Assembly (NCBI RefSeq): GCF_020085105.1
Contig: NC_058042.1
Coordinates: 21,542,001 to 21,606,000 of the forward strand
Length of the DNA: 64,000 nucleotides
Direction of reading: 5' to 3'
Source of the DNA: Siniperca chuatsi
Taxonomy: Eukaryota; Chordata; Actinopteri; Centrarchiformes; Sinipercidae
Made by a program: the position numbers and the translations under genes. Below are positions 3,471 to 33,300 of this stretch, piece by piece. Numbering within the stretch: the first letter of the stretch is position 1; each line of letters opens with the position of its first letter. The notes beneath the pieces are model-generated. The model made no database searches and was not told the origin of the DNA. It worked only from the letters and a program-made list of their open reading frames with translations.

Positions 3471-6400
3471 ATGAAGAACGAAGGTATAGAGGGGACGGAG
3501 AGGTTCCTGAGCCCGGGCAGTGGCAGAGGCTTGCGGGCGGTGAGGCACTTCGCGGTGGGGGAGCTGGTGTTCGCCTGCCCTGCCTACTCCTACGTGTTGA
3601 CAGTGAATGAGAGGGGAGCGCACTGTGAGCACTGCTTCACCAGGTAACATCTTACCTCTCTGAAACAGCTGGGAAAAACACCTCTCTGACAGTTAGCTTC
3701 AGGCTGTTTTTGTCTTATTTTTAGCCTAGCTTAAAAAAGAACAAAGCGAGTAATGTGTCCAGTTCAACGCTGGCTAATCTCATCACCGAGCTAGGTTAGC
3801 TTGTAAACCTCTGGACACCTACCTAGCTGGTGCAGACTTAAATGGGTCAGTGCGGTGAGGCAACTTTCACCTACAATAACCTTTAGTGGTGATTTTTTTA
3901 AAATCCAAAATGTAAAAAGCCTGCTTTCCTGTAAGCTTAATGAGCCTATTAGTATGTTAGCACATGGTCTTACATAAGCTACTCATACTACTTAGAGGTA
4001 AGATACAGTTAAGGGAGCGCTTCACAGATTTCTTCTGATATCTTTGTCATAGTGTGACATTTACTCTGTGAGAGTACTTCCTTAAAGGCAGCCTCTGTTT
4101 ATCCCTACAAGTCCTACACACATGCTTGATGCACTCCAAATAGTAAAAAAGAAAACCTGCAGTCTTTATGATATCAGAGTCTGACTTTATTATTATTATC
4201 AGGTTTAAAGTTTTACTTATAATTAGAATTGAATTATAACATGATTTTGAGTCATTTGTTGGTAGTTTAAAGCCCATGCGTGCACCAGTAACGGTGTAGG
4301 ATGTGGAGTGGTTAGAAAGGCCAGCCTACAACATTCAGAGAGTATTGACATGTGTAGGTGTGTGTAGGCATACTGTGTCAAAAACATAAAGGAAGGTTAA
4401 ACTGCAGTGCACTGGTCCTTTTTAAGGTTCAGCCCTCTAGCTTGCCTACTTGTCTTGTTGAGATCTGATGCACTATGACACTCTTTATGAGATGCTTTAG
4501 AGTTAAATTAACGCCCTCTCACACGCTCACTTTTATACACACGTGTGTCCTACCCAAGCTGCCTTTAAGGTTTGTAGAGCAGTAAAAGGTTAGGGTGCTA
4601 AATATAGTTGTCCATGTGTCCCAAGAGAGGAGGAGCCAAGAGATGAGAAGGCCAGGGGTGCATGTGTGCATTGGGGGTGGGGGTGGCACTAAACTAACCT
4701 CTGTTGTTGTTTCAGCTTAAGTGTATCCCACCTTTTGTCACAATTCTGAAAAGACTCTGATATATTTAAATGTTGTTCTGATAAGAGCTCCACTTCTCAC
4801 CGCTTTAGTAGAGTAGCATTTTGTGTCTTTATGTCATTGCAGGAGAGAAGACCTTTTTAAATGTGGCAAATGTAAGCAGGCCTACTACTGCAATGTTGAC
4901 TGTCAGGTAAGAGTGCTTTCTGCTTCCTTTATGTTCATTTTTATGGAGGGCTTGTAATTTCTGTGTGTGTGTATGTGCGCCAGTTTCCACAATTAACTAA
5001 AGGAACGGACCATGAATACATTTTTACTGCAAACAGTAACTTTTATAAAAATATATAACAATATGTGGACCTGGGGTGCCCTGGTAGCTCACCTGGTAGA
5101 GTGTGCGCTCCATGTACTAAGGCTGAGTCCTTACCGCAGCCCTTAGCCCTTTGCTGCACATCCCCTCTCTCTCTTCCCCCTTTCCTGTCTATCTTTGGCT
5201 GCTAAATAAAGGCAGAAAAGCCCCCAAAAATACAATAAAAAAAATAAAATAACAAAATATGTTGTCCTACAAATATCTATTTTAGTCTTCATTTGTTTCG
5301 GTCTTATTCCTGCTATTTTTTTTTTCTAATAGAAGGACAAAGCGAATGAAAATAGGCAGCAATCAAGCCATTTGATTCTTGTTTTACATTTACAAATGTT
5401 TTTGGTGTCAGTTTGAACCGTTTGTGTGCATCCATATGTGTCAGTACCACCACAGAGTGAGTTAAAAGAACTTATTTTTATTATTCTTGTGACCGACCTT
5501 GGACTATAAATTGAGGACCCCATCAGCAGAGCTCCAGCAAGAGACAGAGAGAGTGTATACACACACACACACACACACTGCTGTTGCTATGGCGATTCAG
5601 TCTGTCCTCCCTCTGCCTAGTTTTAGTTTCATGGCACAAAAAACACTTGGTGCACTGCAGTAAAACTGAGAAGTTTCTGTCCTTTTCTGTGTGTGTGCGT
5701 GCATTTATGCAGAGAGGTGATTGGCCAATGCATAAGCTGGAGTGTGTAGCTATGTGTGCCTATGGGGAAAACTGGTGTCCATCAGAGACCGTCAGACTGG
5801 TGGCTAGACTCATCGTGAAACAGGTAAAGTAATATGAAGTAGGAGTAGAAATGTTTCAACATTCAGACATGTCTTTTTTTTTATTGGGAACAACATGGAT
5901 GTCTATGCAGGAAAGGTTTAACATAAACAGCAAAGAGAGAGAAGATAGATGTGAGATACTTTTACAGAACAAAAAGACATGAGACATCATCCTTCTCAGT
6001 TTATAAGCAACACTGTGCACAAGAGTTCCCAACTTTTAATCTTAGGGTAGCAATACTTATGACACTGAGAACAAAAGTAGACCAAAGACTAAAGCAAAAA
6101 ACAACAAGTGTTGTGTGTTAAAAGGCTGAGACGCCTTTTAAATGGTGGGCAGACTCCGTACTGCTCGGCGCATCACAGGCGTACGCCGACGACGTAGTGA
6201 TGCGGACCCACTGGTACTCATAAAGGGACTGGAGCAATCAGTAATATTATTAATTACACCTGTGGTTTTCCTGCCATCACAAGTGCAAGGAAAACTCAAA
6301 ATGACCAGCCTCTATTTGAAAACTGATGGCTGAACGGAGCCATGTGAGAATGTGACTGGAAAGTCAACACAAAGTTTATAACCTTTAGACAAACTTTAAA

Positions 6401-9400
6401 GAAGATAAAGAGTCAAACAAAATAAGGGGCTGACTTGATAATAAGTTCATTTTATGAGCTAGACCATATTTTATGCAATAAAACCAGCTGTGAGCTGCTG
6501 GAGCAGCGATGCAATGACTTAATTTATCTCTTTTCATTTGTATACCTTTGCATGAGTAGCATCAGGAGTATCCTGGGTGTCATGTCTTTGCTATTCATTC
6601 ATTGCAGTTCAGAAAGGTGACTTGTTCAGACTGGCATCATCAAACAAAAACAATTAAATCGAAGCAAACTATAGTGTTGCAATGTTAACACAACCTTGTT
6701 GTTTTACTCTGTTTAAATTAAAGTGTTGGTCCTGTTGAACACTAAAGTTCTTGAAGCCAGTGCTCTTATCCAGCTGCTGTATTGTTAGTGTTTTAATCAC
6801 TTCTTAATTGGCCAAAAGGTCTTTAAAAAACAATTTGCTACAATAAAGCAAGACATAGAAAAGGGCAATTTGGTTATTTTGTGTTTTATTTTGCATGATT
6901 TTGCTTTTTTGACTAAAATGACCACATGTCTCTCGACCGTGTCTCATGTTGCAGAGAGTCACAACAGAGCGCACCCCTTCAGAAAGGCTGCTACTGCTCA
7001 AAGAGTTTGAATCTCGTAAGTAGATGTGTGTGTATGAATACATGAGCGTGTACGTTTAGTTACATTTGCGTGCACTTTTAGTTACATGGTGCAGTCTGTG
7101 TGTGAGTGTGTGTGATCTTTCTCTGTCTCTGCAGTTGTAGCAGTGTGTCTATTAATATCCTCTGCTGTAGCCTCGAGTCCTGGTTCTGTCTCTTTTCATT
7201 CACTCCAAGTCTGCAGAGCACTGGGACTTAAATCCCAAGGCTCTGGGTGCTGTAATTTCATGTTCTCTCCCCTCCTTTAAAAACTACTGCTACTGTGCCC
7301 TTGAGCAAGGTACTCAACCCTCTTCTCTGAGGGACTGTGTACTGAGAAGCAAGGTATTAACACATGTACTCCATATACCTTATGTCAGCCCATAACTACA
7401 TAGAAGAAACTAAACTCTGCCCAGCTTAATGTTGTGCGACAAGAAGATTTATAGCATTTTCTGTTTTGTTTTTATGGTGCTTTTTAGATAAAGACTAACT
7501 CAACTGTATTATTGAGGTTGTATAAAATGTAGTCCTGAAAACACATGTGAAGCATTTCCCAATAATCTGAATCATACATTGTAAGTTGAGAAGAGTGTAT
7601 TTGTCCAAAAACAAGACTTTGTTCCATCTAAGCGCCCACAAATTGTTTTCTCTGCTCTGTTCGGTGTTCATCATTTAGTCTGAGCTGTTGTTGCAGGCTC
7701 AGATGTGTCATCAGAGGATTGTCACAGAATTAACCTTCACACCTATCTCTCATGCACACAAAGCAAATCAGTGGCCAGCTGCTGCCTGTTGCCACCAGAC
7801 TGTCTCTGTGTGTCTGTTTGAGTTAGTGTGACTGACAATGGCACATGGCCTACAGCAACAGCATATCCTACACGTTACTAACACTGAGTGGTTCTACTAA
7901 GGAGCCATGTGATAGATTATTATGATGGTGGTAACCAATAATAAAAAAAAACACATACATACTCTCATTTTTTCAAGGAGAATGCATATTTAAAGTCATT
8001 TTTGCATGGTCCCTTTGGTAATCTCTCTCCTCTAAAATGGAAGAACTGCCCCAAACAGTTAACTAGACTAAAAGTCTCAATTCTAGCAAGTGGCCCAATA
8101 AGTTTGCAAAGTTCATTACGCCTCACAATACCAAAGTGCTAGTCGGAACAAAATAAAAAAATTACATTTTTGCCTCACTAGTGGTAATAGCAACGTCAGT
8201 GCCGTGGCCATGGAATGATTAAAATTTCAAATGTTTATCTCGGAAGCCCGAATGTGTTCAGAAATCTCTCTGAGATGTCTGCATCTTAGATTATGAGATG
8301 TCCTGTTTGCAAAGTGGACATTTTAGCCTGAGGCTAGAACCAAAGGAGCGTGGAGAGTCAGTGTTCATACTCAAAAGCACTTTAATGGCAAAGCACATGA
8401 GCTAATAAACACACAACCTTCTAGATACAAGGTGGTCTCTTTATGATGGTCTGGTTTATGGTGTTGACTTTGTCTCCATGTCCTTTTTTGTGTATGTTCA
8501 TCTTTCTTTGTTGTCCTCTCTGTTTCTATTTTTCTGTCTCTTCCTCTGTTTGTGTTTCATTGCCTTTTCCAGATTTAGATAAGATGGACAGTGAGAAGGA
8601 GGAGATGAACCAAGCAGACATAGCAGCACTGCACCACTTCTACTCCAGACACATCAGTGACCTCCCCGACGAACAGGCCCTCACTGAGCTCTTTGCACAG
8701 GTAACACTGGATAACACTACATCCCGAAGGTTTCTTTGGATCATAGGATGTTCCATGTTTCTTTGGTAGTATCTTTAGAGTCACTCTGTACTGTGTGGGT
8801 TGTTGCTAGAAATCCACTGATTTAAAATCCTCCTGTTCCTAGAAGGATCCAGGATCTTGGGTGTGTTTTTGTTACTGTCGTGTGTCGAGCATCAGAGGTC
8901 TTGGCTGACACATAGACAGGTGTTGACCTTTCTTGGTCTTGGAAGGACATACTGGGTTGCAACATACACACAGAAAACATTTAGACACACAATGTGCAAA
9001 TACAGTATGTTTACATGTGCACACTACTCATAGTCATACGTTCTTAATGCTTGTGTTCACACATCTTTTTATCTTTCTCCCCTCACATCACCCCCAGTTG
9101 TCCTGCTCTTGTCAGCAGTTACATCATGGAGATGGCTCATGTTCTGGATCTGTATCGCACACACGCGCTGGTCCTGTCTGATTTACTCTACAGCATTAAG
9201 CTCTCTGATCTGTCTGTTAGCGCTGCTGACTCTTTTCTCTCCACGCTACACCAACAGACTCTTTGGCTTCTTATATTACAGCTACATTTAATCTCCACCT
9301 CCTCTGTGGAGGAGGTGTTACAGCACAGGAGAGTAGAGGGTGATGCAAGATGTATTATCTTATTACTCACCCTGTTGTTCTCTGTCGCCACATGTTTGTT

Positions 9401-12400
9401 TGTGTCTTCCCTCCTTTCTTTCTTGCCCTGTCCCTCCTTCTCTCTCCTGTGTTTTGTCTTTGTGTCTCCAGGTTAACTGTAATGGTTTTACCATAGAGGA
9501 TGAGGAGCTCTCCCATCTGGGATCAGCTATTTTTCCTGAGTAAGTAGTCCATGTCAACACATCACCATCGTTCAACAGCTCATCAATTCATCAGTGTATT
9601 TATCTACTGATAAATCCTAAATTCCTCCCTCTGTCTCCTTACATCCACTATATCTCAGCTGCTTCTGATTCGTTTCATTATTTTATTTTATTTTTATAGT
9701 CAGTGTGACATATCCATAAACCATCAACCATCAGTCCCAACATCATAAAGCTTCTAAATGTAACGCTTTTATGAAAATGTCTGATTTCACAATTTTTCTT
9801 TAAACTTTTGTGCTTCTCCTCCTTCCTTTCTTCCTTCTAGTGTAGCACTGATGAATCACAGCTGTAGTCCTAATGTCATAGTGACCTATAAAGGCACAGT
9901 GGCTGAGGTCAGAGCTGTTCAAGAGATAAACCCTGGAGACGAGGTAAGTAAACATTGAGCTCATCTAGCAACGAAGGTGCTTCTCGCAATTTTGAGACCA
10001 CATACAATCACAAAGAGATACATATGCTTATGACAGTCTTTATTTTGATTGATGTAAGAGGGCCATGATTTTTTCATATTTCATCTCCCTCTCTCTCTCT
10101 GTAGATCTTTAACAGTTACATAGACCTGCTCTATCCAACAGAGGACAGGAAAGAGAGGTTGTTAGATTCCTACTTCTTCACATGCCAGTGTACTGAGTGC
10201 ACCTCCAAGTCCAAGGTACTGTTCACGCTCATACACCTTCATAAAGTTTTTGATAGAATTGGAGTGGAACCTTTTTGCTTTGTTGATGTGAGGAATATAC
10301 AAGAAAGTGTCTCACCTGCATCAGTCTCTGCTGTCTGTTGGAGAACTGCTGCAGGTTCATGACATGATACAATTTCTGTCCTCTCTGTGCCAACAACAGA
10401 ACTGATGTTTCTGTTGTTTGTGTTACTGCGTATGTTTGTTTGAAATTGTACCTTACACTGTCAAGCAAGCTGAGTAGCTGTGTCCAAATTCCATACTACA
10501 TACTAACATATGAACTTCATACATGCTTTATACTATATACACCGAAGGCTGTGGAAACAGGACACTTGTAATTCAGTCCCAAATGAGGACAGAAAGTGCC
10601 ACCTGTGTGATTTTGGATGAGGTTAAGAATGAAATGCACTTTATATTCTATCAAGATATTCGAGTTAAGCTTTTCCTGAAAATGTCCCAGTCTGTTTGAT
10701 ATGACTGATGTACAAGGCAGTCAAAAAAAATCCTATCCATTCATTCACCATTCTTTATAGTATATCTTGTTTTGGCAGGAAATGATAATAGACATGTGGC
10801 AATGGATGTCTAGTATCCTTTTGACTTTGGAAAACAACTGCCAGTTTCATATTTGGAAACTTAAACAATGAGAAATCAACATTTATTTTGAAAATGTGGT
10901 CCTTTTTTATGTGTTCTGAGATCTTCCATGAGCTGTCTCAGCAAGTAGTGTCTAATCATTTCCAGCTGTGAGTAGCTCCCATTGTGCGTATTTGAGTACT
11001 TTTGTGTACTATTCCAATGTGAACACACCACATACTGGTCAGAATTAGTGCGTATAGTAGTATCAAATTGGGACGCGGCTAGTGTTACAACAAAGGCTCA
11101 ATCGTACCCTTGTTCCTTTTACATAAACTCCTTAAAGCTTTAGAGTATCTTGTGTAGGATATGTTACCATACATCTATTTCCTACGTCATTTCTTTCCAT
11201 CTCTTTCTAGGATAAAGAAAAAATGGAGATCAGGAAGCTGAGTTCTCCACCAGAGCCAGAGGAAGTCCGATCCATGGTCCGTTACGCCAAGAATGTCATC
11301 GAGGAGTTCAGGAGAGCCAAACACTACAAGAATATCCTCTTCCTCTCTGGTTTCCATTTTCTCACGTCTTCTCCCTCTCAGTCTGTCAGTTTGTCTTTCT
11401 TTATCAAGGACAGTCTTTCACTTCTCAGCCTCTTCTTCTTTCTCTACGTTGCGTGTGCCATTATTCCTTGACTCTCTGGCACCCCCCAGTGAGCTGCTGG
11501 AGATGTGTGAGCTTAGCCAGGAGAAGATGGGAGCCATATTTGCAGACACCAACGTCTACATGCTGCACATGATGTATCAGGCCATGGGTGTCTGTCTCTA
11601 CATGCAGGACTGGGAAGGAGCTATGAGCTACGGAGAGAAGATCATTCAGCCATATAGGTAAATTGATCTGCAGGGAGGCAGTAATGCATTTACAATAGAT
11701 CCTTTAGTGCACTCTCAAGCTTGATGATGCTAAAAATGTTTTCCCTCTGTGGTATACAACACTCAGCCACATCTGCTATGTCTTTTAACTTTTATTATTG
11801 TACTCTTCCAGCTTGACATGTTTTGAACTTTTGTAACACTACAACAAAACCCAATGTAACATTAATTATAGATTATAACTCTTGTTTCCTCTCGCTTTCA
11901 CTGCTTAGCTTGATGTATAAATTATATTCTCTCTACAGTGTTCACTACCCAGCATACTCTCTAAATGTGGCATCTATGTATCTGAAACTGGGACGTCTGT
12001 ATTTGGGGCTGGAGAAGAAGACACAAGGAGTCAAAGCTCTGAAGAAGGTACATTTACAGACATCTGGTCAGTTGTTATGTTAATAGGTGGCAAAGTGAAG
12101 GTAGAAAATATTTTGGGCTCCAAAGAGCAGGAAGGGTAAGGACAGAAAAATTAGCAGAAGATAAGTGAGCTGTAAAAGGCAACTACACTCAGAATAACTC
12201 ATGAAGAAAAAATAGGTTTAGAGATGTGAGGTGAGTCAAGTGCTTGTTCAAACCTTGATCCACAGAAGCACTTGATAGCCATGAATTACAATGTCATAAG
12301 CTGTACAAATGTGTTGGGGGCTAACCACATCATACATTTGCAATGTGTCTTTTAATGATTTTAAAATACTGTTTTTTTTCCTGTCTTCAGGCAGCTGCCA

Positions 12401-12474
12401 TCATGGAGGTGGCTCATGGGAAAGATCACCATTATGTAGCGGAAGTCAAACGAGAAATTGAGGAGCAGAAGTAA
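3471..12474 (+). CDS. smyd2: SMYD2, SET and MYND domain lysine methyltransferase (complete, 12 coding exons)
   Basis: Exons: 3471-3643, 4843-4906, 5713-5823, 6955-7015, 8573-8700, 9472-9539, 9841-9943, 10105-10215, 11211-11331, 11483-11657, 11939-12047, 12391-12474. They join in frame to 435 codons (human 433). From the family: SMYD2 uses S-adenosylmethionine to monomethylate lysines on p53, RB1, HSP90 and histone H3, in cytosol and nucleus. Seen here: the GxG SAM motif (residues 18-20); an intact MYND zinc domain with Cys 52, 55, 65, 68, 74, 78, His86 and Cys90; the NHSC SAM-binding motif at 207-210; the catalytic Tyr241; post-SET cysteines 263, 265, 268; and the C-terminal TPR-like helices. 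One residue is inserted relative to human near 166. The start is chosen because ERFxSPG and GRG follow at the expected distance. All introns are GT-AG except intron 9 (AT-AC). Which teleost co-orthologue (a or b) this is cannot be told. Confidence 0.97.
5072..5245 (+). mobile_element. tRNA-derived SINE in smyd2 intron 2
   Basis: The head has an A-box-like segment (TAGCTCACCTGG, about 5093-5104) and a decayed B-box region. It is followed by a body with TTTGCTGCACATCCCCTCTCTCTC and a tail resembling CCTTTCCTGTCTATCTTTGGCTGCTAAATAAAGGC, ending in A-rich sequence. This layout is that of a SINE family common in spiny-rayed fishes. Lies in sense orientation within the intron; a related copy is at 51905-52110. 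Confidence 0.7.
5558..5580 (+). repeat. (CA)n microsatellite
   Basis: Short uninterrupted CA/AC dinucleotide tract in smyd2 intron 2, about 130 bp upstream of exon 3. Confidence 0.9.
7140..7335. repeat. Possible old SINE-like repeat in smyd2 intron 4
   Basis: Contains the phrase GTGCCCTTGAGCAAGGTACT (7295-7314), a segment recurrent in fish interspersed repeats, near a stretch of mixed composition. No clear tRNA head or target duplication seen, so the class is uncertain. Confidence 0.35.
10473..11083. mobile_element. Palindromic MITE-like element in smyd2 intron 8
   Basis: The two ends are inverted relatives: the left end reads CTGTGTCCAAATTCCATACTAC and the right end, reversed and complemented, reads CCGCGTCCCAATTTGATACTAC. 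The interior (about 0.55 kb) has no coding potential. This fits a non-autonomous DNA transposon. Exact ends and target duplication were not resolved. It ends about 130 bp before smyd2 exon 9. Confidence 0.65.
11332..11482 (+). other. smyd2: U12-type AT-AC intron of smyd2 (intron 9)
   Basis: Between two well-conserved coding blocks there is no GT donor. The sequence right after the Lys codon plus one A is ATATCCTCT, matching the U12 AT-AC donor consensus ATATCCTT in 7 of 8 positions. Near the other end TTCCTTGAC (11464-11472) matches the U12 branch site TTCCTTRAY, with its branch A (11471) 11 nt before the terminal AC (11481-11482). Removing 11332-11482 restores the reading frame and yields K-T-P-S-E-L-L-E, against K-S-P-S-E-L-L-E in human SMYD2. 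The intron is 151 nt with no polypyrimidine run typical of U2 introns. It must be removed by the minor spliceosome. Confidence 0.92.
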
Positions 12475-15993: not shown

Positions 15994-16087
15994 ATGTATT
16001 GGTCATATCAGTGTCATTAATGAGCTTTTTGCAGGATTGTTTTTCCCCTTTAAATAAGTTGATGTCTGTTTAGTCAGGTTATAAACC

Positions 16088-18366
16088 ATGAGCTGGGCAG
16101 TGGAGGAGTGGAAGGATGGACTTTCAGGGAAAGCCCTGCAGAAGATCCAAGAGATGGAAGTCCAGCTGGACAAACTGAAGAAGGAAAGGTCCCAGAAACA
16201 GTTTCAGCTGGACTCCTTAGAGGCTGCCCTGCAAAAACAGAAACAAAAGGTCAACAGAAATGGAACAGGAATAAGTGTAGACCTTTGGGGAAATTATCAT
16301 TTCAGAAAAAATACACACACAAAGAAAGATTTGGAAAATTATAGAAATACGTCTATTAATTATCTATGTTCCTCTTTCTCCAGGCGGACAATGAACGTTC
16401 TGAGACCTCTGCTTTGAAAAGAGAGAACCAGTCTTTAGTAGAGTCATGTGACTCTCTGGAGAAAGCCCGTCAAAAGGCCAGCCATGATCTCGGAGTCAAA
16501 GAGCAGCAGGTCAGTTCCTGATATATCTGCTGCAGTTTATTGCTAGTTAGTTTGAAATTCAAATTGCAATATGGCCAAGTGCAATTTCCAAATCGCAGAA
16601 GCTGCAATTGTTTAATAAAAGGTCAAATGTGTGACAAAACAGCATTATAATGAAGTACTTTGGTGCTGCAGAGATGCCCTGGCCTACAAATCTTGTTCTC
16701 CAGATGTAAGGAAACATGTTTGTTTGGTACAGATCCCAACAAATGTCACATCATCATGATTTTAATAGTTTTTTCAGTGAAAATGAAAACTGTGATGCAA
16801 AAATTATCTTTCCTACTAATCATGAACCATCTTAATATCTGTTAAAATAATCGCAATATGATTTTTTGCCATATCGTGCAGCCTTTTTAACAGCAGATAA
16901 TCCTTTTTCACAGATGTACTCGAATGTATATTTAAGCCAACATACAATGTATTTTTAAAATGAAATGTATAGAAAGAAACACCCAGTATTTTATCTCTAT
17001 GGGCTATTACAACTGGAATGTTACATAGTAACTGGAGAGCAGCTCAGTGTCAAGTACCATAGAGCTGTCCAGTAGACAAAGACATAGTCACTAGTAACCA
17101 ACCAACCACTGTGATGGCCAAAAAAAGGAAATTGAGGCTCAGGTTCTACTTATCGGGAATTAAACATGAAATTTTAACTTTCTGTGATCTTGACTAAATC
17201 CCTTTCCTAAACCTAGGTGAGCTACCTGGAGGGTCAACTTAACTCCTGCAGGAAGACCATAGAACGACTGGAGCAGGAGCTCAAGAAGTGAGTTCAGTGT
17301 CTGTTCATATGCATTTTTATGTAAGTAGTGCAGGTGGATTCACACATGTAGCTCCTGTGACTTGGTGCTTTGTCAAGTACTGAGTAAGTCGTCATTCTTA
17401 ACATGAATAGATAGAAACTATTTGACCTGATGGAAAGAACTGAAATCCTGACTCTTGAATGACTGTTAATGCTGTCTTTGTTGTCACTCCATCTGCTCAG
17501 GTACAAAAATGAACTGGATCGTTCTCAGAGCCAGCCTGCTGGCTCTTCCTCCTTGTCATCCTCCTCCTCTGAGCTTCAGCCCTACTCTACTCCACAGAAA
17601 AGTTTCCTTACCCCAGCTCCTGTCCCGGCCTACAGACAGCAGGGTATTTCAGTTTGTTTTTATCCTCTGTGTCTCAAAATTATGGGGTATATGTTTCATA
17701 CGGTCATGTTATTAGACGTTTCTTCTCCTTTTTATCTTCACCTCAGTTGTTTGATTTCCATCTGTATGCTTACCTGTCTGGCTGGTATTATTGCAAATGT
17801 TAGTGATGTTGCTGCCTCTCATCTACTTGGGACTTTGTATGTGAGATGTATATCTCAGTGACTCTGAAACTGAGTTTGTCAGTTTACCCTAACGTGGTAT
17901 TTGTATTTGCGCTCCATAGATAACAGATTAGAGGAGCTTCAGGAGAAATACAGCCAGGAGGTAGAAGAAAGAAAAAGGCTGGAGACTGAACTCAAAGTCC
18001 TGCAGGTCAAAGTGAGTACATTACTTATATTTATTATGTGGGTTTGTCCCTTCGTAGTTGATGGTGTTAACGTATCTCTTCTCTTTTAGCTGTTGAGTCA
18101 GTCCTCAGTCAATGTAAGCCACAAGGACATTGCTGCCCGCCAAGGTGGATCTTCCATATTCCCTTGGCAACAGCAGGATCAGGCCCACAACCGCCAGTCT
18201 CAGTCAGATGCAATGGAAACGCCTCTGAAGAGGAGGGGGACATCCCTGTGGGACGCCCATGAGGAGACACCCATTAAACCCAGCCAGCGGATGAGCTCTT
18301 CCAGAGCAGTGCAGAGTCCCAGTGGATCCTCCCAACAGATGGAGCAGCTAAAAACCATCAACCAAG
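16088..18366 (+). other. cenpf: CENPF N-terminal domain coding exons
   Basis: The first six coding exons (residues 1 to about 290) encode the Cenp-F_N region. The first 54 residues form a coiled coil ending QLDSLEAALQKQKQK, identical to human in that stretch. Then follow a TPQK-containing linker, EVEERKRLE, and a low-complexity Ser/Pro-rich stretch with TP and SP sites (METPLKRR, EETPIKPSQ) that look like CDK sites. In human this end contains one of the two microtubule-binding regions. Confidence 0.85.
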
Positions 18367-21300
18367 GTGGGCTGTGTATAATTTGTTTTGAAATTAATAT
18401 CGTATGTAGTGTTTGGTATCTTTTCCGTGAAATATTTGATAGCCTTTTATTTTGCACATCCATCACCTCTAAAAAATATATTTGACTCATTTTGGCTCCT
18501 GTCAGATGTCCTGACCATGTCCAGCAACAGGGCTTTCATTTTTATTGTTTCTTCATCAGAGCTGCGTGGCCGAGTGTCAGAGCTGGAGAGGAATCTGTCT
18601 GCTCAGGAGAAGGAAATTCGTAGCCAGGCTTCCAAGCTGCAGGAACTACACACCCAACTGAACCAGGCCCGCAAAGAGCTGACCGAACAGGACAGAGACC
18701 TGACCAAGACCAGCCACGAGCTGAGTCAGGCCAACGACAGACACCAGCAGGTTTTGGTCAAGGTAGGCTTCCATCATTGGAATGTTGAGATTTTATTAAT
18801 ATGGGATTATTTGTTTTTGTTCTGTTTCTGCCTGATTACATAGTTTATAGTAGGAAAGATGGCTTGAAAACAGAAGAAAACATGTAAATGACAAATATTC
18901 TGCCAATTGTTCTCAGTGTTCATCAGTTGAGCAGAAGCTGAAACAAGTCACGGAGGAGATGAGCTGTCAGAGGCACAACGCTGAGAGCTGCAGACGGGCT
19001 CTGGAGCAGAAACTCAAGGACCAAGAGAGAGATGGTCAAAAGGTGCAGCAACCTGGAGACATAACTTTATTAGACCTTTAATGTTTTTAGGTTTTAACAA
19101 CACTATGTAAATAAAATTTAAATTTTATTTATTTTAATCCCAAACTTTTGTGCCTGTTGATACATTTTGTGTAGGAGCTAGCCCAGCTGCAAAGTTCTCA
19201 CCAGGCTTTGGAACAGCAGCTGAACCAGACCAGAACCAAGCTAACACAAGAGATCCAACAGTCCAAAAAAGACTACAACGTAGTGCAGGCTGACATGGAG
19301 AAGGTAACTTTGTAACATCTCTGTTCTGCTCTGCATTTTTCTACTCTGATTCATTCTGTATTCACACATCCGTCAACTTGGATAACTTGGAAGAAAAGTC
19401 ACTGAACTGTCTCTGAGGTACCTGAGTTTTACCTTGTTATTTGCAAGTGCCTTCATCATTTCAAGTGTTAATTGTTAAAAAAACAAAAACACTATGTCAA
19501 AAGCACACAAGCTTCTTCTAGTTATTTCTTTGTCATTATGTTATGTAGCTATATTATTGGCTACCTCAATGGTGCTGTTACTGTCAGCATTCACATACCC
19601 AAATGTATTTAGAAGATGGCTGTGAGAACAGCAGAGTATTAGGCTCGGTTTAGCTGGAGTTGAATACAGTTCAAAATGTGGTAGACTGATGCCTTTACCG
19701 TGTTTTCTGATGCTCCACTCCTGTCCTGTACTTCACTTTCAAGAGCCTAACTGATGCAGGATCAACTATTTCAGTTTGCATGCAAGGTATGCCAACCAGC
19801 AATGCAGAAAACGCTGACTTTTATCTCGCAGGTCACATTTGAATATTGAAATTCAACTGTTTGCATCAACTTTTGTCTGTTGAAGGTTTTAGGGCATTTG
19901 TATGTGACATTTGTGTCACATTTCTCAGACTTTCTGCCATTGTTTGTACTTCTACCTTCTCTTAACTCTTCTCTCCTTTTGCTCCTTTCCAGATGTGCTT
20001 CCAGAAGAGTCAGATGGAGAAGGAGGTGGAGGAGCAGAAACAGAAACTGCTGAGGTCAGAACAGACCTTGCAGGCCAGCCAGACCAAAGAGCAGGACCTC
20101 CGCAAGAAAATGGAGGTGGGTTGCTTTTCGTAGAATATCCACTTACTGTAGTTGTGAAATCACCTAGCGTGTCCCCTAATATAGCTTTTTTATCTCTTCT
20201 TAATGTTTGAACAGCCCTTTGTGGCCAAGTTTAAGTATCAAAAAATACCACCAAATATCATTATATTTTAACCAAATTACCAAAATGTAAAGGTTTCAGT
20301 ATGTATTTATCTCAACACTATGAACAGCTCTTCCCTATTCAACATTTCTTCTTCTTCACCTTCACTATAAGTGTTTGTTTGTGCAGCAAAAACCGTAAGA
20401 CCTAGGTGGGTTGCAAATTCCACCCAGTACTCAGGCACATATAATGACACTCACTGACCTCAAGGTGACGCTGTAATAATCAAGTTTACACAATTATCTC
20501 AAGTGACTTGGCCTAGAATCAAAATTCTTTCATCATTTTAATCTCTCATCTGCGTTTTTTCATCTGCAAGTTTTGTGATTCGCATCATCTACGGACTTCA
20601 CTGATCTTAAGTTGTTTAAAGAAATTTCGATACGTCAATCTGTTTCAGTTATACAAGCCAATATCAATTTTTATCAAAATAGCAACAAAAGAGCTACATC
20701 AAATGTTTCTGAAAGTAGATTTATATACCTCAACAGAGCATCAGCATGTAGTGATGACCACGCTGAATTATTTTAAAGAAAATCAAGAATTTTGCTTCTT
20801 GTCAATTAAATAAGAAACAAGCATCCAAATGCTCACAATTTGCTTGGAGCCCAATCATTGCCGCTTGTGGCTATATTTTCTTTTTCTTGTGATCTCCATG
20901 TCTTCCCCCAGCTGTCCCCTTTTTTTTTTTGCTGCCACTCATGTTTTCTCCACATTTCTTCTTCCCTCCAGGAGCTGCAGAAAGAGAAGAACAGTGCGAC
21001 TGTCCAGTTGGACCAGAGCAGCAGGCGTCTGAGTCAGCTGGAGGAAGAGAAGAAGAGTGCAGACCAGAGCCTCAAACGCATCCAGGGATTACTAGATGAC
21101 CTAAAAGGTAAATTAGCAGAATGGCAGAGGGTAGCAGTTATTTTAGAGAATTATCTGAGGCTATCTCAGTTTTTAACTTGTTTGTCTGTTTGCTCTTTAG
21201 CAAAATCAGAGGGGCAGGCGGACGAGCTGAAGAGACTTCAGTCTAAACTGGAGCAGCAGACTCAGGCTTCGGCCCGGGAGCTTGAAAACCTGAAGAAGAC

Positions 21301-24300
21301 ACTTTCTGATGCAGAGACCAAAAATGACAGGTAAACATAGTTTTACTGTAGAAGAACAAGAAAGTTCAGTCACACTTTGTGAAAAAATAAAGAGTACACT
21401 ATATCTGTGGTATTCAACTTAAACTAACAACTAAAATATTTTTATTACACTGTAGATCTCAGAATGAACTGCAGAAACAGAAGCAAGAGACAGAGAGGCT
21501 GACCAACAGATTGACAGTCCTAGAGAAGGAGAGCCAAGAGCTGAAATCCAATCTCACTGCGAGACAGAATGAGTGTAAGGAACTGAAACAAGAATATCGA
21601 GCTCTGCTGGAGTGGAGGAACAACAAGGAGACCTTGATTAATGAAACTGAGGCTGTGCAAAAAGACCTCACTGACAAAATTGGCAACTTGGAGAGCAGTC
21701 TCATCTCGCTGAATGAGGCTAATGATGAACTCAAGGTACGGTGCTGTGGTTCCCAATATATTGACTTAAATTATGGATAAGGAAAGATATGCCACACAGT
21801 TTATCTGAATTGATAATCCTGCATACTGAATCTAATCGGATAAGAAATACTTTTGCTTTATTAAAGAGCAATAGTAAATATGCAAAAGAGAAAATAAGAC
21901 AGGTCTCTTAAAATGAACAGTTAGTTTCATTTTTAGAAAAACCTACATTTGTATTGCTTAAATTGCATACAACAATATTATCTAAACTAAACCCATTTAG
22001 TGCATTTAAGTGCCATATTACATTCTGGGTTTTAAAGATAACATGTTCTGAAGTACAAAAACAAACACCTAATGCTTTGAAAAAGGTTTATATACTTAAG
22101 TTTCAACCTACCTACAGCTCAGGCATAACGTAAGCCTTTATTGTCTTCTTTGTGGCATTTGTAGGAGGCAAAAACGAGTGGACAGGAACAGTGACTATCA
22201 TAATAGTAAATAACATGAATGAAGCTCAGGCTTTCACAAATTGACCACAGCATTTTATTTTCTGTGGTTATTTTCTTGAGCAAAATCTAGCTAAGTTAGG
22301 GACATCATAACTAGCCACCACATTAATTTATGTTGTTAACTAGCTATTACATATAGCCTACATTCTTTAGTAGCCTTCATCTACCTTGTCGGGTCTGCTC
22401 TGTGAACTGGATGCAGAGACTGTAATGTTATGCTTTCTGCTGAGATGCTGAAGCACAGACGTTGTGCTATTGTGGTGGACTAGTTCAGTTTTACAAAGTT
22501 TAATGTGAATATCATCAACCAGTGTTGCCCAGCACATTCTAGGATGTGTTGTATTATTCTTCAATCATTACCATTAATGACCTTTTTCTTTGAAGATTCT
22601 GTGGGCTGATGCTGAAACATAATTTTTACTGTTGGCGTTTTAGATATTTTACTTTCTTTCTGTTAAAGTGTTGTGCTAAAAATATGTTGACATAATGCCA
22701 TCCAGGATTGGAATAAGAAACATAACTGACTCCAAAAATACAATTGCCATCATCAGTAATCTTTTAAGTAGTTAAACCCTCACCTTCAATTCATTTTTAC
22801 TCACTATTGTAGAAGCAGCTCATGAGTGTAGAGGGAGACAAGGCCAGTCTGTCTGCTCACATTGATTCCTTGAAGGGAGAACTCCTTAACAAGAGCACAG
22901 AGTTGGAGGAGAGGGAGCATCAGTACAAGGAGCTCCAGTCTCAGTTCTCCAAGGCTGGACAGAAGCACACCAAAGACCTGGAGAATGTTGCTGTGCAAGT
23001 GGCTCAGCTTGAGGCACAGGTGATTTATTGTATTATTTGTTTTTGTTTTGTTTTTTAGTACATTTTCCAATAATTTGTGGTTCCCAAGGTACAAGAGGTT
23101 TAATGGTATCCAAGATATCCCTGCAAGGTTCATAAGCAAACATAATAGGTAAAAAATTGTTTTTGCCACTGAAAATGAATTCTTAGTTTTGTGTAAGGCT
23201 CAATGATGTAAGAGCAATGAACATTTATGTCCCTTGAAAGATTTTTTTCTTTTAAAAATGTTGAATGTGGTAATTGGGAAAAATAGCATCCCTCTTTCCC
23301 GTTTTGTAATGGGATTAGCTGAAAACAATCTCTGCATCTTTGAAGTGTACTTTTATTCAGATTTTGGTCTTGTTGAGAGCACAGGATACCCAATGACATT
23401 TTAATAACTTACTGTACCTAAAGCAATATAATCAATAGTCATTGATTTGTGCTTACTCTTTTATCTGAACAGGTCAAAGATCTGGAGTTGCAGCTGCAAA
23501 AGGAAATGACTCGAGCAGAGCAGGCTGAGAGGACCAACAAGGAGCTGCAGGACGAGCACAAGGCAGCCTGTGACTTGGCTCGCTCCAAAGACCAGCTGGT
23601 GGAGTTGGGCCAAGCAGAAATTAGCCAGCTGAGAGAGAGCCTCGCTCAGGCCACTGCGCAGCAGGGGGAACAAAGTGCCAGGTGGGAGTTTTGTTTGTTG
23701 TTGTTTAGCCCTTCGATACATCATACTTTTACAAACTTTATAAGGTTTGGTTTTTGTTGAGACTGTGTCTTAGAGCTGTTGATTCCACCCTGCTTCATTG
23801 TGCAACATGAGACTGCAGGATTTAAGAGGTTAATGGATACAGCCACAATGAAATACTTAGTGCCTTATGACATAAGCATGATATGAATACTGTGTCCTCA
23901 TTGTTTCCTTGGGCAAACAATAAATGTAGCTTGCTTTTTACATGCTTATTTTCTGTCTTTGGTGTAATCTCTACCAGGTTGGCAGAGGAGAAGGCAGCCC
24001 TACTGAAGCAGTGTGAGGAGAGTGTTTCAGCAAAGGCTGAAGAGACTGAGCAGCTCAAGCTGCAGTTGGAGGAGGCTCAGCAAAAGCTGCTGCTCACCAA
24101 AAACCAGGTCTTTTTTACTGGACTGCATCAGAAATAGAACAAGCAGTCTTTTGTTTACACATTCTGTCATTTCTTTTGGAGTTGATTCAACTTTAGCTGT
24201 AGTTAGTGATGTTCTAATGGATTGCAATATATTATAATGTACAAAATAATCTTATGACCAATGTGTATATCATGATCAAAGTATCTTTGCTATCATACAC

Positions 24301-27300
24301 TTAATATTTACTTAACATTAATGTCTGGCAGTTGAATAGTATTCAAAGAGTATTATGACTGAGTGTCTTTAATGTTATTGGCAAATTAAATCTATTCTGC
24401 TGACCTTCTAATAGTTGAATCTTCTGTTCATATTTCAGGTCAGTTCCATGGGTCAGTTCCTGAAGGTCCAGGAGCAACTGGGAGCTGAGCTGCAGAAAGA
24501 AATTAAGACACTGTCAGACAATGAAGAGGAACATAAAAAGATGAATGAGAAAAAATCAGAAGAGCTCAAACAGTTAGAGGAAGAGCTGAAGGATCTGCAG
24601 AGCTGCACAGAAGAGAAGGAAAAGCAGCTCAGAGAGGCTGAAGCTCAGATTTTGTCTCTGGAGAAACAAAAGGCTGAGCTGGAAGATGCAGTTCAAGAGG
24701 TGAAGAAAAAGGCTGAGGTAAAAATGTATTATGTTTAGTGAGTTCTACATATATAGGCTGTACTTTTTACAAATAATAAACTTAAGTCTATTTCTTATTA
24801 AGAACCTCCAACAGGCTCATACTGAGAAGATCAACAACCTTCTGGAGCAGATATCTTCCTTAGAAGAAGAGGTAACTGCAAGCAAAGATGCAGCAGAGAA
24901 GCTTCCAGTCTTGAAGAATGAACTGGACGCAGTCAACCAGTCCCATGCTGACCTTAAGAAGTGTCTAGAAGCTCTTGAGAGGAGTCACTCCTCTACTATT
25001 GAAATCAAGTCTAACTTGGAGAACACCCTGGCTGAGAGAACCAGTCTGATCTGTACTTTGGAGAAAGAAGTCAAAGAGCTCACAGAGAAGATGAGCAAAG
25101 AGTCAGAGAGTCACGCTTTGGAGATTGAAAATGTTCTTAAACAAGAGAAGCGCCTTAAAGAGAAGCTTGAAGCCGCTAAGCAATCAGTAACTGCTGCAAA
25201 AGTGGAATCAAGTTCTCGACGGGAGGAGATCAAGACCATGAAGACGACTCTGTCTGCTGCTTCACGTGGCTTAGAAGAGAGAGACAACATGATAAAGAGT
25301 CTGAAGGAGAAGCTGAATAAAGCAGAGGCAGAGCAGGCCAAAACGTCTGATCTCCTGAAGGAGAAAATGGATGCCATGAACAAAATCAAGGTTGGTAACT
25401 AATGTATTCTTGGTTTTGTTTTGGGCCTTACATGTCTTCTTACGTAGAGTGGAAACGTCACTATATTATATCAGTCTTGTGTGGCTCAGGGTATTGTAAC
25501 AAATGGTAGACCAGAAGAGGTATTCTTCAAGTAAAGTGTGATGAGTCATTGTTTTAATAATTTGCTTTATTCATTTCATTTTTCACATTAAGGTGCAGCT
25601 AGAGATGCTGCAAATGGACCTGGAGGACAACGAGACAATCATGAATTCTTTTGACAGTCAGGTGGAGGAGCTGAGGAGAACCATCGAGTCACTGGAGGCT
25701 CAGCTGGCTCAGAACCAAACCCAGATGTCTGACATGGAGGCCAGGCTGGAGGACAGCAAAGCCCAGGTAGAGCCACTAACTTGCACAAAATAATTTTGTG
25801 CCACAGATGCTAGACTTGGTGTGGCGATTCACTTTTATTATTCTTCAGAGCCCAATATTTTTACCAGTGCCTGTTGCTCTGTAGGGATGAAAACATCCCC
25901 AATTGGATTAAATCTAAACTCTAACCTTTTCAGGTCTCTGTCTTGGAAACCCGGTTAGAGGAGGTCCAATCTCAGAACTCTGTGCTGGAGACACAATATG
26001 TCACAGCTAGGGAGGAGTTGATGGAGAGGAGCTGTGAAATAACTCGCCTGGAAGAGGATGCTGTCAAACTAAGCCAGCTGGAGGAGAGCGTTGCCATTTT
26101 AGAGTCTAAACTCAGTCAGACCACAGAGGAAAATGTCAAGTTAGAGACAACTCTCAGGCAGATAATTGAGGACAAAGACAATAATCTTAACCATTTACTA
26201 CAAGAGAAAAACAAACTTGAGACTACTTTAAAACAGTTAACAGATGACAAAGAGCAAGTCGAAACTGAACTTATTCAAGTAAACGCGGAGAAGAAACAGC
26301 TGGGAGCCAGTCTAGACACACTAGCTGAGGAGAACAAACAACTGCAGACCAACATTAAGCAGCTAACTGAAGAAAAGCAGAAAATTGATCAAATAACTGT
26401 TGAGAAACAAGAAGCCGAATCGACCCTTAGACAGGTGATTGAGGAGAAAGCCCAACTAGATGTTACCCTCAATCTGATAAACCAGGAAAAAATCCAATTT
26501 GAGGTTAGACTAGTCGAGCTAACCTCTGAGAAAAAAAACTTGAATCGAGTAGTTGAGGAAAAGCTTCAGCTGGAAGTTAACTATAATCAGCTTACTGAAG
26601 AGAACATCAAACTACAATCGAGTGTGAATCAAGTGACTGAAGAGAAGCTGCAGTTACAAGAAAGCATAGAGAGGCATGAAGACAAGGTGGCTTCTCTTAA
26701 AGAGGAGAACAAATGCATCCAGCAGCAGCTCGAGATGAGAGAGGAGAACAGAGAAAGGTACAGTACATGTTTAACTGCTTTCCACTTTGAAGTTTGCATG
26801 AGTTACTATAGTTCAATTCTTCAGTATGTATATTTTTGGTACTATATGACTTTTATGTTGTATCACAGGAGCCAAAGGTTTGAGGCGGAGCAGGCAGAAC
26901 TGCATCAGAAGTTGGCAGGCTTACAGAACGAGCTGACTGTGTTACAGCAGCAGTACGATTCACTGCTGGAGCAGGTGGGCCAACAAAACAGCCTCATAAT
27001 TCAGCTCTCAGAATTGCAGGAAACCCAGACCCAAGGAGGAAAAATCAGCTACATGGAGTCTGAGGAGACAGAAATTGGTGGTGAGCATAAACCAAAACTA
27101 AAGTTCTTCATGAAACACTGCTGTGGCTTTACATTTATATTGAATTATCTGTAACGCTTTCCCCCAGCAGGAGCAGCAGGACAGATTGCTGTAGAGCTGA
27201 CACTTGATCCAAGCGTCAGTACCAATACTGAGTCCCTTCCGGTAAAGGAACAGCTGAGCCCTATGGTGTCTGAACTGGGTGAACCTTCCCACCAGTCTGA

Positions 27301-30300
27301 CGAGGCTTTCAGGTACAATGAGTTTTGTACTAAGCACAAAGCCTTTTGTGTGTTACATGTGTGCTTTATTAAATCGAATCTCCCTCACCCCTGGTAGTGA
27401 GACAGAGCTGGTCTTCAAGGAGGACATCATTGAGCAAGAGATGATCCACGAACAACTGGGCGAGAAGAGGGAGGCATGTGTGGCCGATTTAGAGGAAATG
27501 AGGGGGAACGAAGAGCAGCAGCATCAACAGCAACCCTTAGATCAGGTAATAACAATTATTACAATGCATATTTGTCCTTTGGTCATGATGCTGCTGGGAT
27601 ACTTACTTTGAGTCATCATTAATGTAATCAGGGAACTTGATAATTGCTACTGAAATTTCTCTACCACAGAGGAATGTTTAGCATTCAGCAGTTTGAGCAT
27701 TGTCTTTCAAAAAGTTTAAATTTATGCCATCTATACCTCAGATTGTTCACAAGTGTACTGTGAATACATAAGCATTATTATTGAGTGTGTTTTATAACAT
27801 AAACAGAATGACCTTGGGTATCAGTCTTTATGATGTTTTATTTCGTCTTCTTTCTTGCAGCTTCCTGAAGACAGCAGTTGTTCCAGAGATGTTCTTGAAA
27901 GTAAACCTGAAATCTATGAGCTTTCTCCACCATCTTCCCCCCTTGGTGAGACCAGAACGTTAGAATCCTCTATTGAGTAATTAAATTGTGCTTATGACTG
28001 CAGTTTCAATAATAATGTGTTTTCTTGTGTTATTTATTTATTTATTTACTAACTTAAAAAATAAATCTAGAGGCTATTGCTCCAGCCAATATAAGCATTA
28101 CACCCTATTATAGACTTCCAAGGAATTAGACTTGACACTTGATACTGATTAAGATGCATTCTGATTCACACTATGAATTATTGCTTTAAATCTGATCAAT
28201 GATGTTTAAATAAACTTGTATGTGTTCAATCTGTCTATCAGCGACAGAATCACCCCAGGTACAAGATGACCTCAACCACTACAAGGAAATGATCACAAAA
28301 CAAGAAAATGAACTCCATTCCCTGCGCTCAGAGTTTGACCTACTGAACTCCGACCTCGCACTGAGAAAGGAGTTGACTGCCGAACTGGAAGTCAAAGTTC
28401 AAAACTCAGAGAAGAAAGTTCATGCAGCAGAGGAAGAGGCACATGGTGCAGCACATAAGCTGAACATCGCTTTGGAGGAGAAGAAAGGCCTTGCTGACCA
28501 GGTAGGGGAAGACATGCCAAATACCAATAAAAAATAGTCAATTCCATTACGACACTGAAGTATAACTGATACTAATACTGTGTGCTCATTTGTAGCTGGC
28601 TCAGCTGTCAGAGGAGAGGGAGACATTAACTCTGCAGCTGCAAACGGTTAGATGCCAGCTGGCTGATGTTATGGAGATGCTGGAAGGACTGGAGATGGCC
28701 AAAGGTAAATATTTTCCTATCTTACTGCAAATGAGGGATTTCACCATACAAGATTATTTACTGATTTTAAACCTCAGTCTGAAACAAAGTGCTAAATGCA
28801 AAGAGCAGCATATGAAGGAACACGCAGGCTTTAAGGTTTGTACAGTGTTGTTGTATGTTTATTAATTGGATATTTTCCTTGGTTCTGAAGGTGGATGGGA
28901 CGAGAAATTCCTTCAGCAGGAGAGCGAGCTGAAGAGGGTTCGCTCCGAGAAAGCTAACCTGGAGCAGCACATCCTGGGCATGGAGTCTGAGCTGGAGACC
29001 TTGCAGGAGGAAAGGACCAAACTGAAGGATGAGATGGAGACCCAGAAGAGGACTTGTTCAGGCATGGAGCAGCAGATAGAAACACTCACGACAGAGGTGA
29101 GCACTCGTGTCAAAACACTATATGTATAAGGGCTGTGCATGTATCTGGAAAATTAAAGCAATGTGCGCCTTGTGCAAAAACTGACAACACAGCAAGACAT
29201 TATTGAACATGGTCTGTTTTTTAAGCTTACACTTCATTCAGTGTGGCATAACTATTCTAAATCTTACTATTTCTCCAGACAACCCAGCTGAGGTCTGAAC
29301 TTGTGTCCTGCACTGAGGAGCGAGATGACCTGAACCAGTCTTTGGGCCATTGGAGAGAGAAAGTTCACAGTCTGGAGAAGACTAATTGTGAAACCAGAAA
29401 CCTAATTTCCATCCTGGAGGACGACATCAGAGCAGGGAGGAAGGAGTATGAAGCCCTGCAAAGCAGCATGGAGAAACTGAAGACAGAGAGGCAACAGGTA
29501 TGTACATGGAAAATTCAAGAGAGAGAGTGGCTTGAGTTAAAGGTCTGGGACCTGTGCACATTTCCTTGTGTCAATTAGGCTTTTATAAGTTAGCTTGCAT
29601 TGATAGCATAAGGAAATGTACATTTGTCTTTCATCTTGTTAGGTTTGCTATTTCAGGCCAGTCCATTCAGAACATAGCAACATGGATGGATAGTAGAAAT
29701 GCCTCTTTGATTCTATTGGGTAAATGATGAAAGATGAAATCACTGCACATCACATCACTGCAGCTAAAGTTATGTTAATAGCAAAAGTGAACAATAGATT
29801 AATGTAACATTGTTGCTCATGAGGTCTGATGAAGATATACTCATGTGGTCACACATGTTGACACTCTTGAAAAGGATGAATAATCTTTGAACTGATGTTA
29901 TTGTGCACTCGCATGCCTTTTGGGTGTGTGTGCGCTACATTTCGTCCGTTGCTGATTGTTGATGTTTCAGTTTTCTTTATGAAGAGTTCATTCCCTTTTC
30001 TTTCACTAAAGCTGTTGGAGCAGATTAAAGCGCTGGAGCAGGCAATATCCAAACAGAGTGGAGAAAGAGAGGAGCTTATTGGGCAGCTTGACAAGATCAC
30101 AGAAGACCACACCTCGGCCAATCAAAACACTGAGTCCATGGTCGGCAAGATACAGGTGAGGTCTTTATCTCGTTAAAATCAAAATAAAGAGTTGTGTGTT
30201 TTAAGAAAGCATTTACAGTTTGCATACCTTTATTACAGAGTGCATGGACAAATAAACCCACAGATGGTTCAGATGCACTTTAGTTTCAGTAGTTGTGTAG

Positions 30301-33300
30301 CATCAACAAGATTCACAACCAGACTGTCAACATATTGCCTAAGCATCAGTTAAATACTGTATACTCAAAATACCACTACTGATGATGATGATGGCGATGG
30401 CGATATAGAGATTATGGACATTAACTTTGTAGCCCTTTCATCTTTGATGACAAAGGGGACATAAAATGTTTAATTCTAATCTACCTTGTTTCCCTCCTGT
30501 TTTTCCTCAAGGCTTTAGAGGGAGAAGTGTGTCGTCTCTCGCAGTCTCTAGAGTCCTCTCTACTAGAAAAGGGAGAGATTGCCTCTCGTCTGAACTCGAC
30601 ACAAGATGAGATCCAGCAGATGAGGACCGGTATTGAAAACCTCCAGGTCCGCATCGAGTCTGACGAGAGGAAGAAAAAGAAGATGGGGGAACTGCTCAAA
30701 GGTGACTCTTAACATCATTTGAAATTACATAACCTCTTGAGTTTTGTGGGTTGTGTTGGTCTAAATGTGTGACTCTGACTTCTCTAGCTGCCCAGAGAAA
30801 GTCTGACTCACTGCAAGATCGCATTGATGCCCTGGAGCGAGAGGCTGAAGATGTAGAGCAAAGTCTGGAGGAAGCTGTGCTACAGGTATTCTGTTGTAAC
30901 CTGGTGTATGCCAGAATAAATAACCAGCTATTTCTTACCATTGCAACTTATTTTTGCCTGGATAAAATTCACATGTGAGGTGGTTTGATAAGGTCAGCAT
31001 TTGCTCACCTTGTTTTAAATGCAAATTTTTCATGCTCTTCCACAGGCTGAAACAGCCAAAGCTGAGCTGGAGGAGGAAAGGAGAAAGGTGCCTTCATATT
31101 AGTCTGTGTTTGGCTATCTGATGCCCTTTGCTGTGTATCTGTGATGTTTTTTCTTTATGTTCTAATGGTAAAACATGACAGTTGTTGTAAACCAAGCAAT
31201 ATATTAATCAGATTTCTTCTCCCTTTTTCTTCCTTTCTTTCATGCTCTTCCTTTCCATCCTGATTTTCTCCTTCACCCTTGGTTTCTTTCCTTTCACAAA
31301 CTCTCTGCTGCTGTCTGTCTTCATCCCTCACCACCTCCTGACCCGCAGGTGGAGGAGGAGAAGAGAGAGCTTGGCAACAAACTATCAGAGCTCTCTGCCA
31401 CGCTGGACAACCTGAGATCTGAGAAAGAACGCATGGAGAGAGAGCTGGAAACAAAAAACAGAGAGATAGAGGAACTGAAGGCCACTAAGGAGGAGCTGGA
31501 GAGAGGGTTGGAGAAGGCAGAGGTAGATCGAAGAGAGGAGGAGGAAAGACAGAAAAACAGGGTAGAAGAGCTGGAGAAAGGAATGAGAGAGGAAACAGAG
31601 AGGCAAACGAGACAAGTGGATAACCTCCAGGCGCAGCTAGAAGCCTCTCGGCAGAGAGAGATCTCCCTTGAACAAAAGAGTGCAGAAACAGAGAGGGAGA
31701 AAGAGAGGATGCAGTCTCTGCTTGTAGAGATGGAGAAAGAGAAAATGTGTCTGCAGTCTTCTTTGGAGGAGTGGCAGACAGAAGGAGAGAGGCTCCGCTC
31801 TCAGGAAAAGGACTGGGATCAAGAGAGAAACAACCTAAAGACCAGTACTGAGGCTTTGGAAGAAGAAATTAAAGTGCTTAAAACACTCATAAAAGCTAAA
31901 GAGGAAGAGAGAGAAGTGTTGGAGAAGGAGGCAGATCAGAGACACGCCTCAGTAAAATCCATCTCATCTCTTATGGCGGAGAACAAACAGATTGAAGAAG
32001 AAAATGGACGGCTGGCTGAGGAGAAAGAGAAACTTCTCTCGACCCTGTTTTCAGTGGAACAAGAGCGAGATAACCTGCACTGCAGTCTTGCATCTGTAGA
32101 AGAAGAGAGAGAAAGACTAGAACAAGAGAGGGGGGTGTTAGCTGATGAGAAAGAGAAGCTTCAATCCAGCCTTTCCTCGATCGAAAAGGAGAAACATGAC
32201 CTGCAACAAAGTCTCTTTTCATTAAAGCAAGAGAAGGAAAGAATAGAGGACGAGAAACAGAAGTTAGAGGCTTTAATTGAAGTAGAGAAAAATAACCTGT
32301 CGTCAGCTCTTTCTTCACTGGAACAAGAGAAGCAAAGAGCAGAAGAGGAGAAAGAGAAACTCACAGAAGAACAAGACAGTCTTCAGTCTACAGTTGCCTC
32401 TATGGGGAAGGAGTTGGAAATGTACAAGTTGTCTGTCGAACAGCTCAATGAGCAGGTACACACACATGTAGTTTACCTTTACTTGTTTTTGTTACCTTCA
32501 ATCCTATAAAAAGCTTAAATGTAACAATTTCTTTTGTACATGCATGGTTCAACACAACAGGTTCAAAATGTCAGTGCAGCAGTATGTTTCCAGCCGCCTT
32601 TTACATGCAGGACTAAGCCAAATCTGCAGTAGACCACACAGTAGTAACCTCAGCCTGTGGCATTAACAGGAGCAAGTTTATACATTCACAGGCTTTAACA
32701 GGGAAAAGTAAAATATAACCACACTGGCATTATTCTTTAAGCAGGAGTTGTGTGGCCCTGTAAATGAGACAGGTGAAAGTGATGTTTTATTGTTATCTTA
32801 CCACTTTCTGTCTTCCTGTTTCAGGTGTCAGAGCTGACATGTCATGCCGCTTGTGTGTCTAAAGAGAGAGACTCTGCCCTGAGCAAGATGAGTCTTTGGA
32901 TGAAGACGTGCAAACAGCTGGAGCAGGAGAAGCAAGTGATGCTAAACAGCTCAGGTGTGGAAATACATTTAAGCAATTTTCCGTTATTTTCAAAACTTGA
33001 TGTGGAAGTAATCCGGACAGACTAGAATTTTCACTCTGGACCAATCTTCAGTTTGTGTTTTTAAATAAATCCAAATTTATCCAAGATTTGAATAATTCCA
33101 GACAAAGAAATATTATGAAAAGTATAGACCATGAGATAATTCTGTTTTATCATATGATGCTACTTCTGATTTGAAACAGGAGGGCAGCGATAGCATGCAG
33201 TATGACTTGAAAAATATTAAGCATAATAAATTCAACATTTACAAAGTGGACACATGTAGAACAAAGAGTAATTGGAGAGAAACTCAGGTTTTCCATTGTA

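Follow-up and report, generated by a model that had tools for sequence, protein, structure and literature searches.

The smyd2 locus and its neighbours

The window, by which we mean the whole 64-kb stretch of Siniperca chuatsi DNA analysed here, contains a smyd2 gene on the forward strand. Read directly from the window and translated exon by exon, the gene model comprises 12 exons with a coding sequence of 1308 nt including the stop codon, and it encodes a protein of 435 amino acids with no internal stops. The spliced protein matches a solved SMYD2 chain (3s7b) with an E-value of 3.1e-235 and contains SET (PF00856) and MYND (PF01753) domains above the Pfam cut-off; the gene name smyd2 is supported. 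Ten of the eleven introns have GT-AG termini, the exception being intron 9, which begins with AT and ends with AC. The last bases of exon 9 are CACTACAAG A, with position 11331 as the final one. The coding and domain features of the locus are as follows.

3471-12474, + strand: smyd2 coding region including introns (model and translation; SMYD2 chain match; Pfam domains)
11211-11331, + strand: exon 9, whose 3' end encodes ..EEFRRAKHYK followed by A, base 1 of a split codon (model and SMYD2 chain alignment)
11483-11657, + strand: exon 10, opening with the CC of the split Thr codon and continuing with PSELLEMCELSQEKM.. (model and SMYD2 chain alignment)
16085-16414, + strand: CENP-F N-terminal domain (Pfam)
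33417-34175, + strand: CENP-F C-terminal Rb-binding domain (Pfam)

Downstream of smyd2, a cenpf-like gene extends over positions 16085-34175 of the forward strand. Long open frames separate its two terminal domains; two of these frames, 24722-25399 and 25925-26700, were tested and gave no Pfam match. On the reverse strand, Pfam recognises an Ion_trans_2 ion-channel exon at 55724-56191, which we take to resemble a KCNK2-like two-pore potassium channel, and the order smyd2-cenpf-kcnk2 presumably recalls that of human 1q32-q41. Nothing in the window scored at or above the gathering threshold of any Rfam family.

Boundaries and signals of intron 9

The features of the exceptional intron are listed below, one per line.

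11332-11482, + strand: intron 9, AT-AC, classed as U12-type, 151 nt, phase 1 (model, register and motif scans; orthologue in PMC7367187, Table 1)
11332-11340, + strand: 5' splice site ATATCCTCT, 8/9 to RTATCCTTT (human orthologue, ATATCCTTTA)
11464-11472, + strand: predicted branch site TTCCTTGAC, branch A at 11471, 9/9 to TTCCTTRAC (identical nonamer in the branch regions of five mammals)
11481-11482, + strand: 3' splice site AC in the context GGCAC (model and register scan; AGCAC in five mammals)
11469-11471, + strand: TGA that is in frame upon retention of intron 9, its A being the branch A (frame translation)

Across intron 9 the spliced frame reads KHYK-T-PSELLEMCELSQEKM, and KHYKTPSELLEMCELSQEKM aligns with KHYKSPSELLEICELSQEKM with no gap at the junction in the two SMYD2 chain alignments inspected. 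When every pairing of exon ends from 11300 to 11419 with exon starts up to 11519 was scanned, five registers produced a gap-free KHYK.PSELLE junction, with the termini GA-GC, AA-CA, AT-AC, TA-CC and AT-CC; AT-AC is the sole recognised pair among the five, and neither GT-AG nor GC-AG occurs in them. The original prediction that AT and AC boundaries restore the right frame and residues is thereby borne out. The region searched also holds 47 in-frame, stop-free joins with candidate termini (17 GT-AG, 16 AT-AG, nine AT-AC and five GC-AG), of which 11332-11482 alone yields a gap-free junction, and the GT-AG, GC-AG and AT-AG alternatives were accordingly rejected; AT-AG combinations are described as disfavoured in PMC3584512. 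An AG acceptor at 11489 and an AC acceptor at 11472 were discarded as well, each of them shifting the frame and running into stops.

The consensuses of U12-type introns are RTATCCTTT for the donor and TTCCTTRAC for the branch site. Scored against these consensuses, the donor of intron 9 agrees at eight of nine positions, as opposed to three to six in the ten other smyd2 introns, and its branch site at nine of nine, as opposed to five to seven; the one donor mismatch in intron 9 is a C instead of the consensus T at position +8. The intron ends TTCCTTGACTCTCTGGCAC, with 11 nt from the branch A to the last intron base, which falls inside the optimum of 11-13 nt between branch A and 3' splice site that PMC3584512 gives for U12-type introns. 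Direct reading of the window and the motif scan agreed exactly with the original proposal on the coordinates, the donor, the branch site and the spacing of 11 nt. A distinct polypyrimidine tract ahead of the acceptor is not expected in U12-type introns. The overall pyrimidine content of intron 9 is 75%; pyrimidines occupy 14 of the 20 positions from -23 to -4, inside the range of the ten GT-AG introns of smyd2 (11-20 of 20), so that this measure is of no help in calling the class.

Within the 64 kb, ATATCCT is present six times on the forward strand and five times on the reverse strand, the donor heptamer alone thus not being rare; the nonamer TTCCTTGAC has a single copy on both strands taken together, and the full arrangement of donor, branch site and AC is found once. 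Of 300 dinucleotide shuffles, 2 contained this arrangement when its span was capped at 500 nt and 24 when it was capped at 3,000 nt, figures that were computed without demanding placement at the required phase-1 junction. No further U12 intron was detected on either strand of the window by a search for ATATCCT or GTATCCT with TTCCTTRAC and a suitable acceptor within 3,000 nt, which relies on exact motifs and misses weaker U12 introns.

The original prediction had suggested setting the intron beside that of human and other vertebrate SMYD2 genes. In Table 1 of PMC7367187, which has no fish SMYD2 row, the corresponding SMYD2 intron is U12-type, phase 1 and AT-AC in human, chimpanzee, dog, mouse and rat. 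Its donor is ATATCCTTTA in human, chimpanzee and dog and ATAACCTTTC in mouse and rat, which differ at +4 (ATAACC), and all five branch regions contain TTTCCTTGAC, each intron ending in AGCAC (PMC7367187). Judged by gene, position, phase and boundaries, all of which agree, the fish intron is orthologous to the mammalian one, the gene being assigned by protein similarity and the position by junction codon and phase. The macaque row, printed among class-conversion examples, is U2-type, with the donor GCCCTGATGG, yet TTTCCTTGACT / GTTTCCTTGACT are kept (PMC7367187); because TTTCCTTGACT is kept with this donor, the U2-type row may be an annotation error.

The boundaries could be right and the intron nevertheless be removed by the major (U2) spliceosome. 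U2-type introns with AT-AC ends do exist but are rare, making up 0-0.07% of U2-type introns across 24 genomes (PMC7367187, Table 2). Removal of intron 9 by the major spliceosome is very unlikely in view of the donor and branch matches to the U12 consensuses, the U12-like spacing between branch site and acceptor and the U12-type class of the five mammalian AT-AC orthologues in the same survey. The same signals and orthologues uphold the U12-type class that had originally been proposed.

The junction in related SMYD2 proteins

A protein search returned 484 matches, and the figures that follow cover the best 120 of the 484, which are close relatives and not a random sample. An exact K-x-P junction is present in 68 of these best 120 of 484, the middle residue being Thr in 49, Ser in 18 and Pro in one. 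Among the 52 without it, 38 have a read-through of the donor after KHYK (NIL in 37, YIL in one) and 14 are truncated or otherwise rearranged. NIL corresponds to the translation of A followed by ATATCCTN, and YIL to that of T followed by ATATCCTN, in the phase of intron 9; the single YIL entry is that of a lizard (P0114), as expected if the split codon there begins with T (Ser), as in human, and not with A.

This translated donor, seen in P0002, P0003, P0022 and 35 more of the best 120 of 484 entries, spans teleosts, a sturgeon (P0080), a lungfish (P0084), a frog (P0110) and the lizard. Together with the mammalian rows, its spread suggests that the U12 donor of SMYD2 appears widely conserved across bony vertebrates, as judged outside the mammals from protein sequences instead of DNA, with mouse and rat carrying ATAACC. 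Two entries do not give the ATATCCT reading, P0099 (Denticeps, KHYK-NIF) and P0011 (Lepidogalaxias, KHYK-NPL, labelled low quality); these deviations may be altered donors or sequence errors.

Alignment gaps were counted from five residues before to six residues after the junction residue. At intron 9 they affect 51 of the best 120 of 484 proteins, compared with one to nine of the 120 at each of the other ten junctions, which confirms the original prediction that gene finders would mis-model this exon pair. The entries that are not exact by motif outnumber the gapped ones by one (52 against 51) owing to P0021, in which NIL replaces TPS without a gap. At intron 3, 39 of the best 120 of 484 do not match, eight of them gapped and 31 merely divergent, and gaps alone were therefore used to compare junctions. 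Sources were assigned by hand to four classes, with P0029 (NCBI and lgn sources) counted as NCBI-named and P0111 (351 aa) taken as a partial short-contig protein. Within the same best 120 of 484, the gap at intron 9 is found in 25 of 30 uniref-only entries, 13 of 14 NCBI hypothetical or unnamed entries, 13 of 66 NCBI-named entries and none of ten short-contig proteins. All ten of the latter, from contigs of 1.8-3.6 kb, have the exact junction; at lengths so far below that of the 9-kb smyd2 gene, the contigs are probably transcripts.

A GT-AG intron with shifted boundaries, adding or removing a few residues, would also place an intron here, and the ranges scanned do contain 17 in-frame, stop-free GT-AG pairs. 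None of the 17, however, gives a gap-free junction, and the exact K-x-PSELLE is found in the ten short-contig, probably transcript-derived, proteins and in the two displayed SMYD2 chains. Shifted boundaries are, moreover, hard to reconcile with the translated donor held by 38 of the 52 non-exact entries among the best 120 of 484, and in P0009, P0035 and P0092 the tripeptide FLD, possibly a translation of the branch site TTCCTTGAC, stands upstream of PPSELL; we consider a shifted GT-AG intron extremely unlikely. Next to no credence can be given to retention and translation of the segment, since the upstream frame, open for 46 codons, then meets the TGA at 11469-11471, the 151 nt shift the frame with loss of the C-terminal part, and no short-contig protein retains it (0 of 10).

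With the AT-AC boundaries at 11332-11482, the NIL/YIL entries are probably mis-models of intron 9. The tripeptide would serve as a simple finder of mis-modelled SMYD2 entries and makes donor conservation readable from protein databases alone. This fingerprint of mis-annotation is a modest, useful extra, and the comparative support that it brings is new.

Predicted minor splicing of smyd2 and comparison with known introns

The 12-exon model, the gap-free junction with its sole recognised termini, the donor and branch scores, the spacing, the five mammalian orthologues and the junctions of the relatives lead to the conclusion that intron 9 of smyd2 is almost certainly an inherited U12-type AT-AC intron of bony-fish smyd2. 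From what is generally known of this pathway, ATATCCT would be recognised by U11 and then by U6atac, TTCCTTGAC would pair with U12, and the minor spliceosome would join 11331 to 11483; removal by this machinery is expected from sequence and orthology. Retention would shift the frame by 151 nt and introduce the stop at 11469-11471, leaving a truncated SMYD2, and would probably lead to nonsense-mediated decay. SMYD2, which methylates p53 and RB1, would be a clean, conserved minor-intron target, the output of which should fall upon failure of the minor spliceosome.

On a broader scale, it seems fairly likely that the AT-AC U12 intron of SMYD2 persisted across bony vertebrates, with a donor that is mostly ATATCCT (ATAACCT in mouse and rat), that much public annotation, mainly of fish, misses it and yields KHYK-NIL/YIL, and that the macaque 'U2-type' row may be a similar error. 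The original prediction presented the intron as a rarity, and its class stands, whereas its novelty does not: the intron has been published in five mammals, and AT-AC introns make up 12-26% of the U12-type introns of the surveyed vertebrates (human, 26%; zebrafish, 22%), with 8% in Xenopus (PMC7367187, Table 2). With the mammalian SMYD2 U12 intron already on record, its fish counterpart is an ordinary, well-preserved example. A full-text search of open-licence literature, with supplements and the IAOD database outside its scope, found no paper on SMYD2 and minor splicing beyond PMC7367187; a further match, PMC5877747, concerns FUS.

With U2-type AT-AC introns, whose donors and branch sites do not carry the extended U12 motifs, intron 9 shares only its terminal dinucleotides, and it possesses both U12 motifs. 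It agrees with U12-type AT-AC introns in general, as described in PMC3584512, in its donor, its branch site and the 11-nt distance from branch A to intron end, and differs from them in nothing essential. The closest relative is the mammalian SMYD2 intron (IAOD; PMC7367187), with which it has in common the gene, phase 1, the AT-AC ends and the branch site TTCCTTGAC, as well as the donor ATATCCT in human, chimpanzee and dog. The differences are the C at +8 of the fish donor, the fish GGCAC in place of the mammalian AGCAC, the ATAACC of the mouse and rat donors, and the split codon, which encodes Thr (A|CC) in the fish and Ser (T|..) in human.
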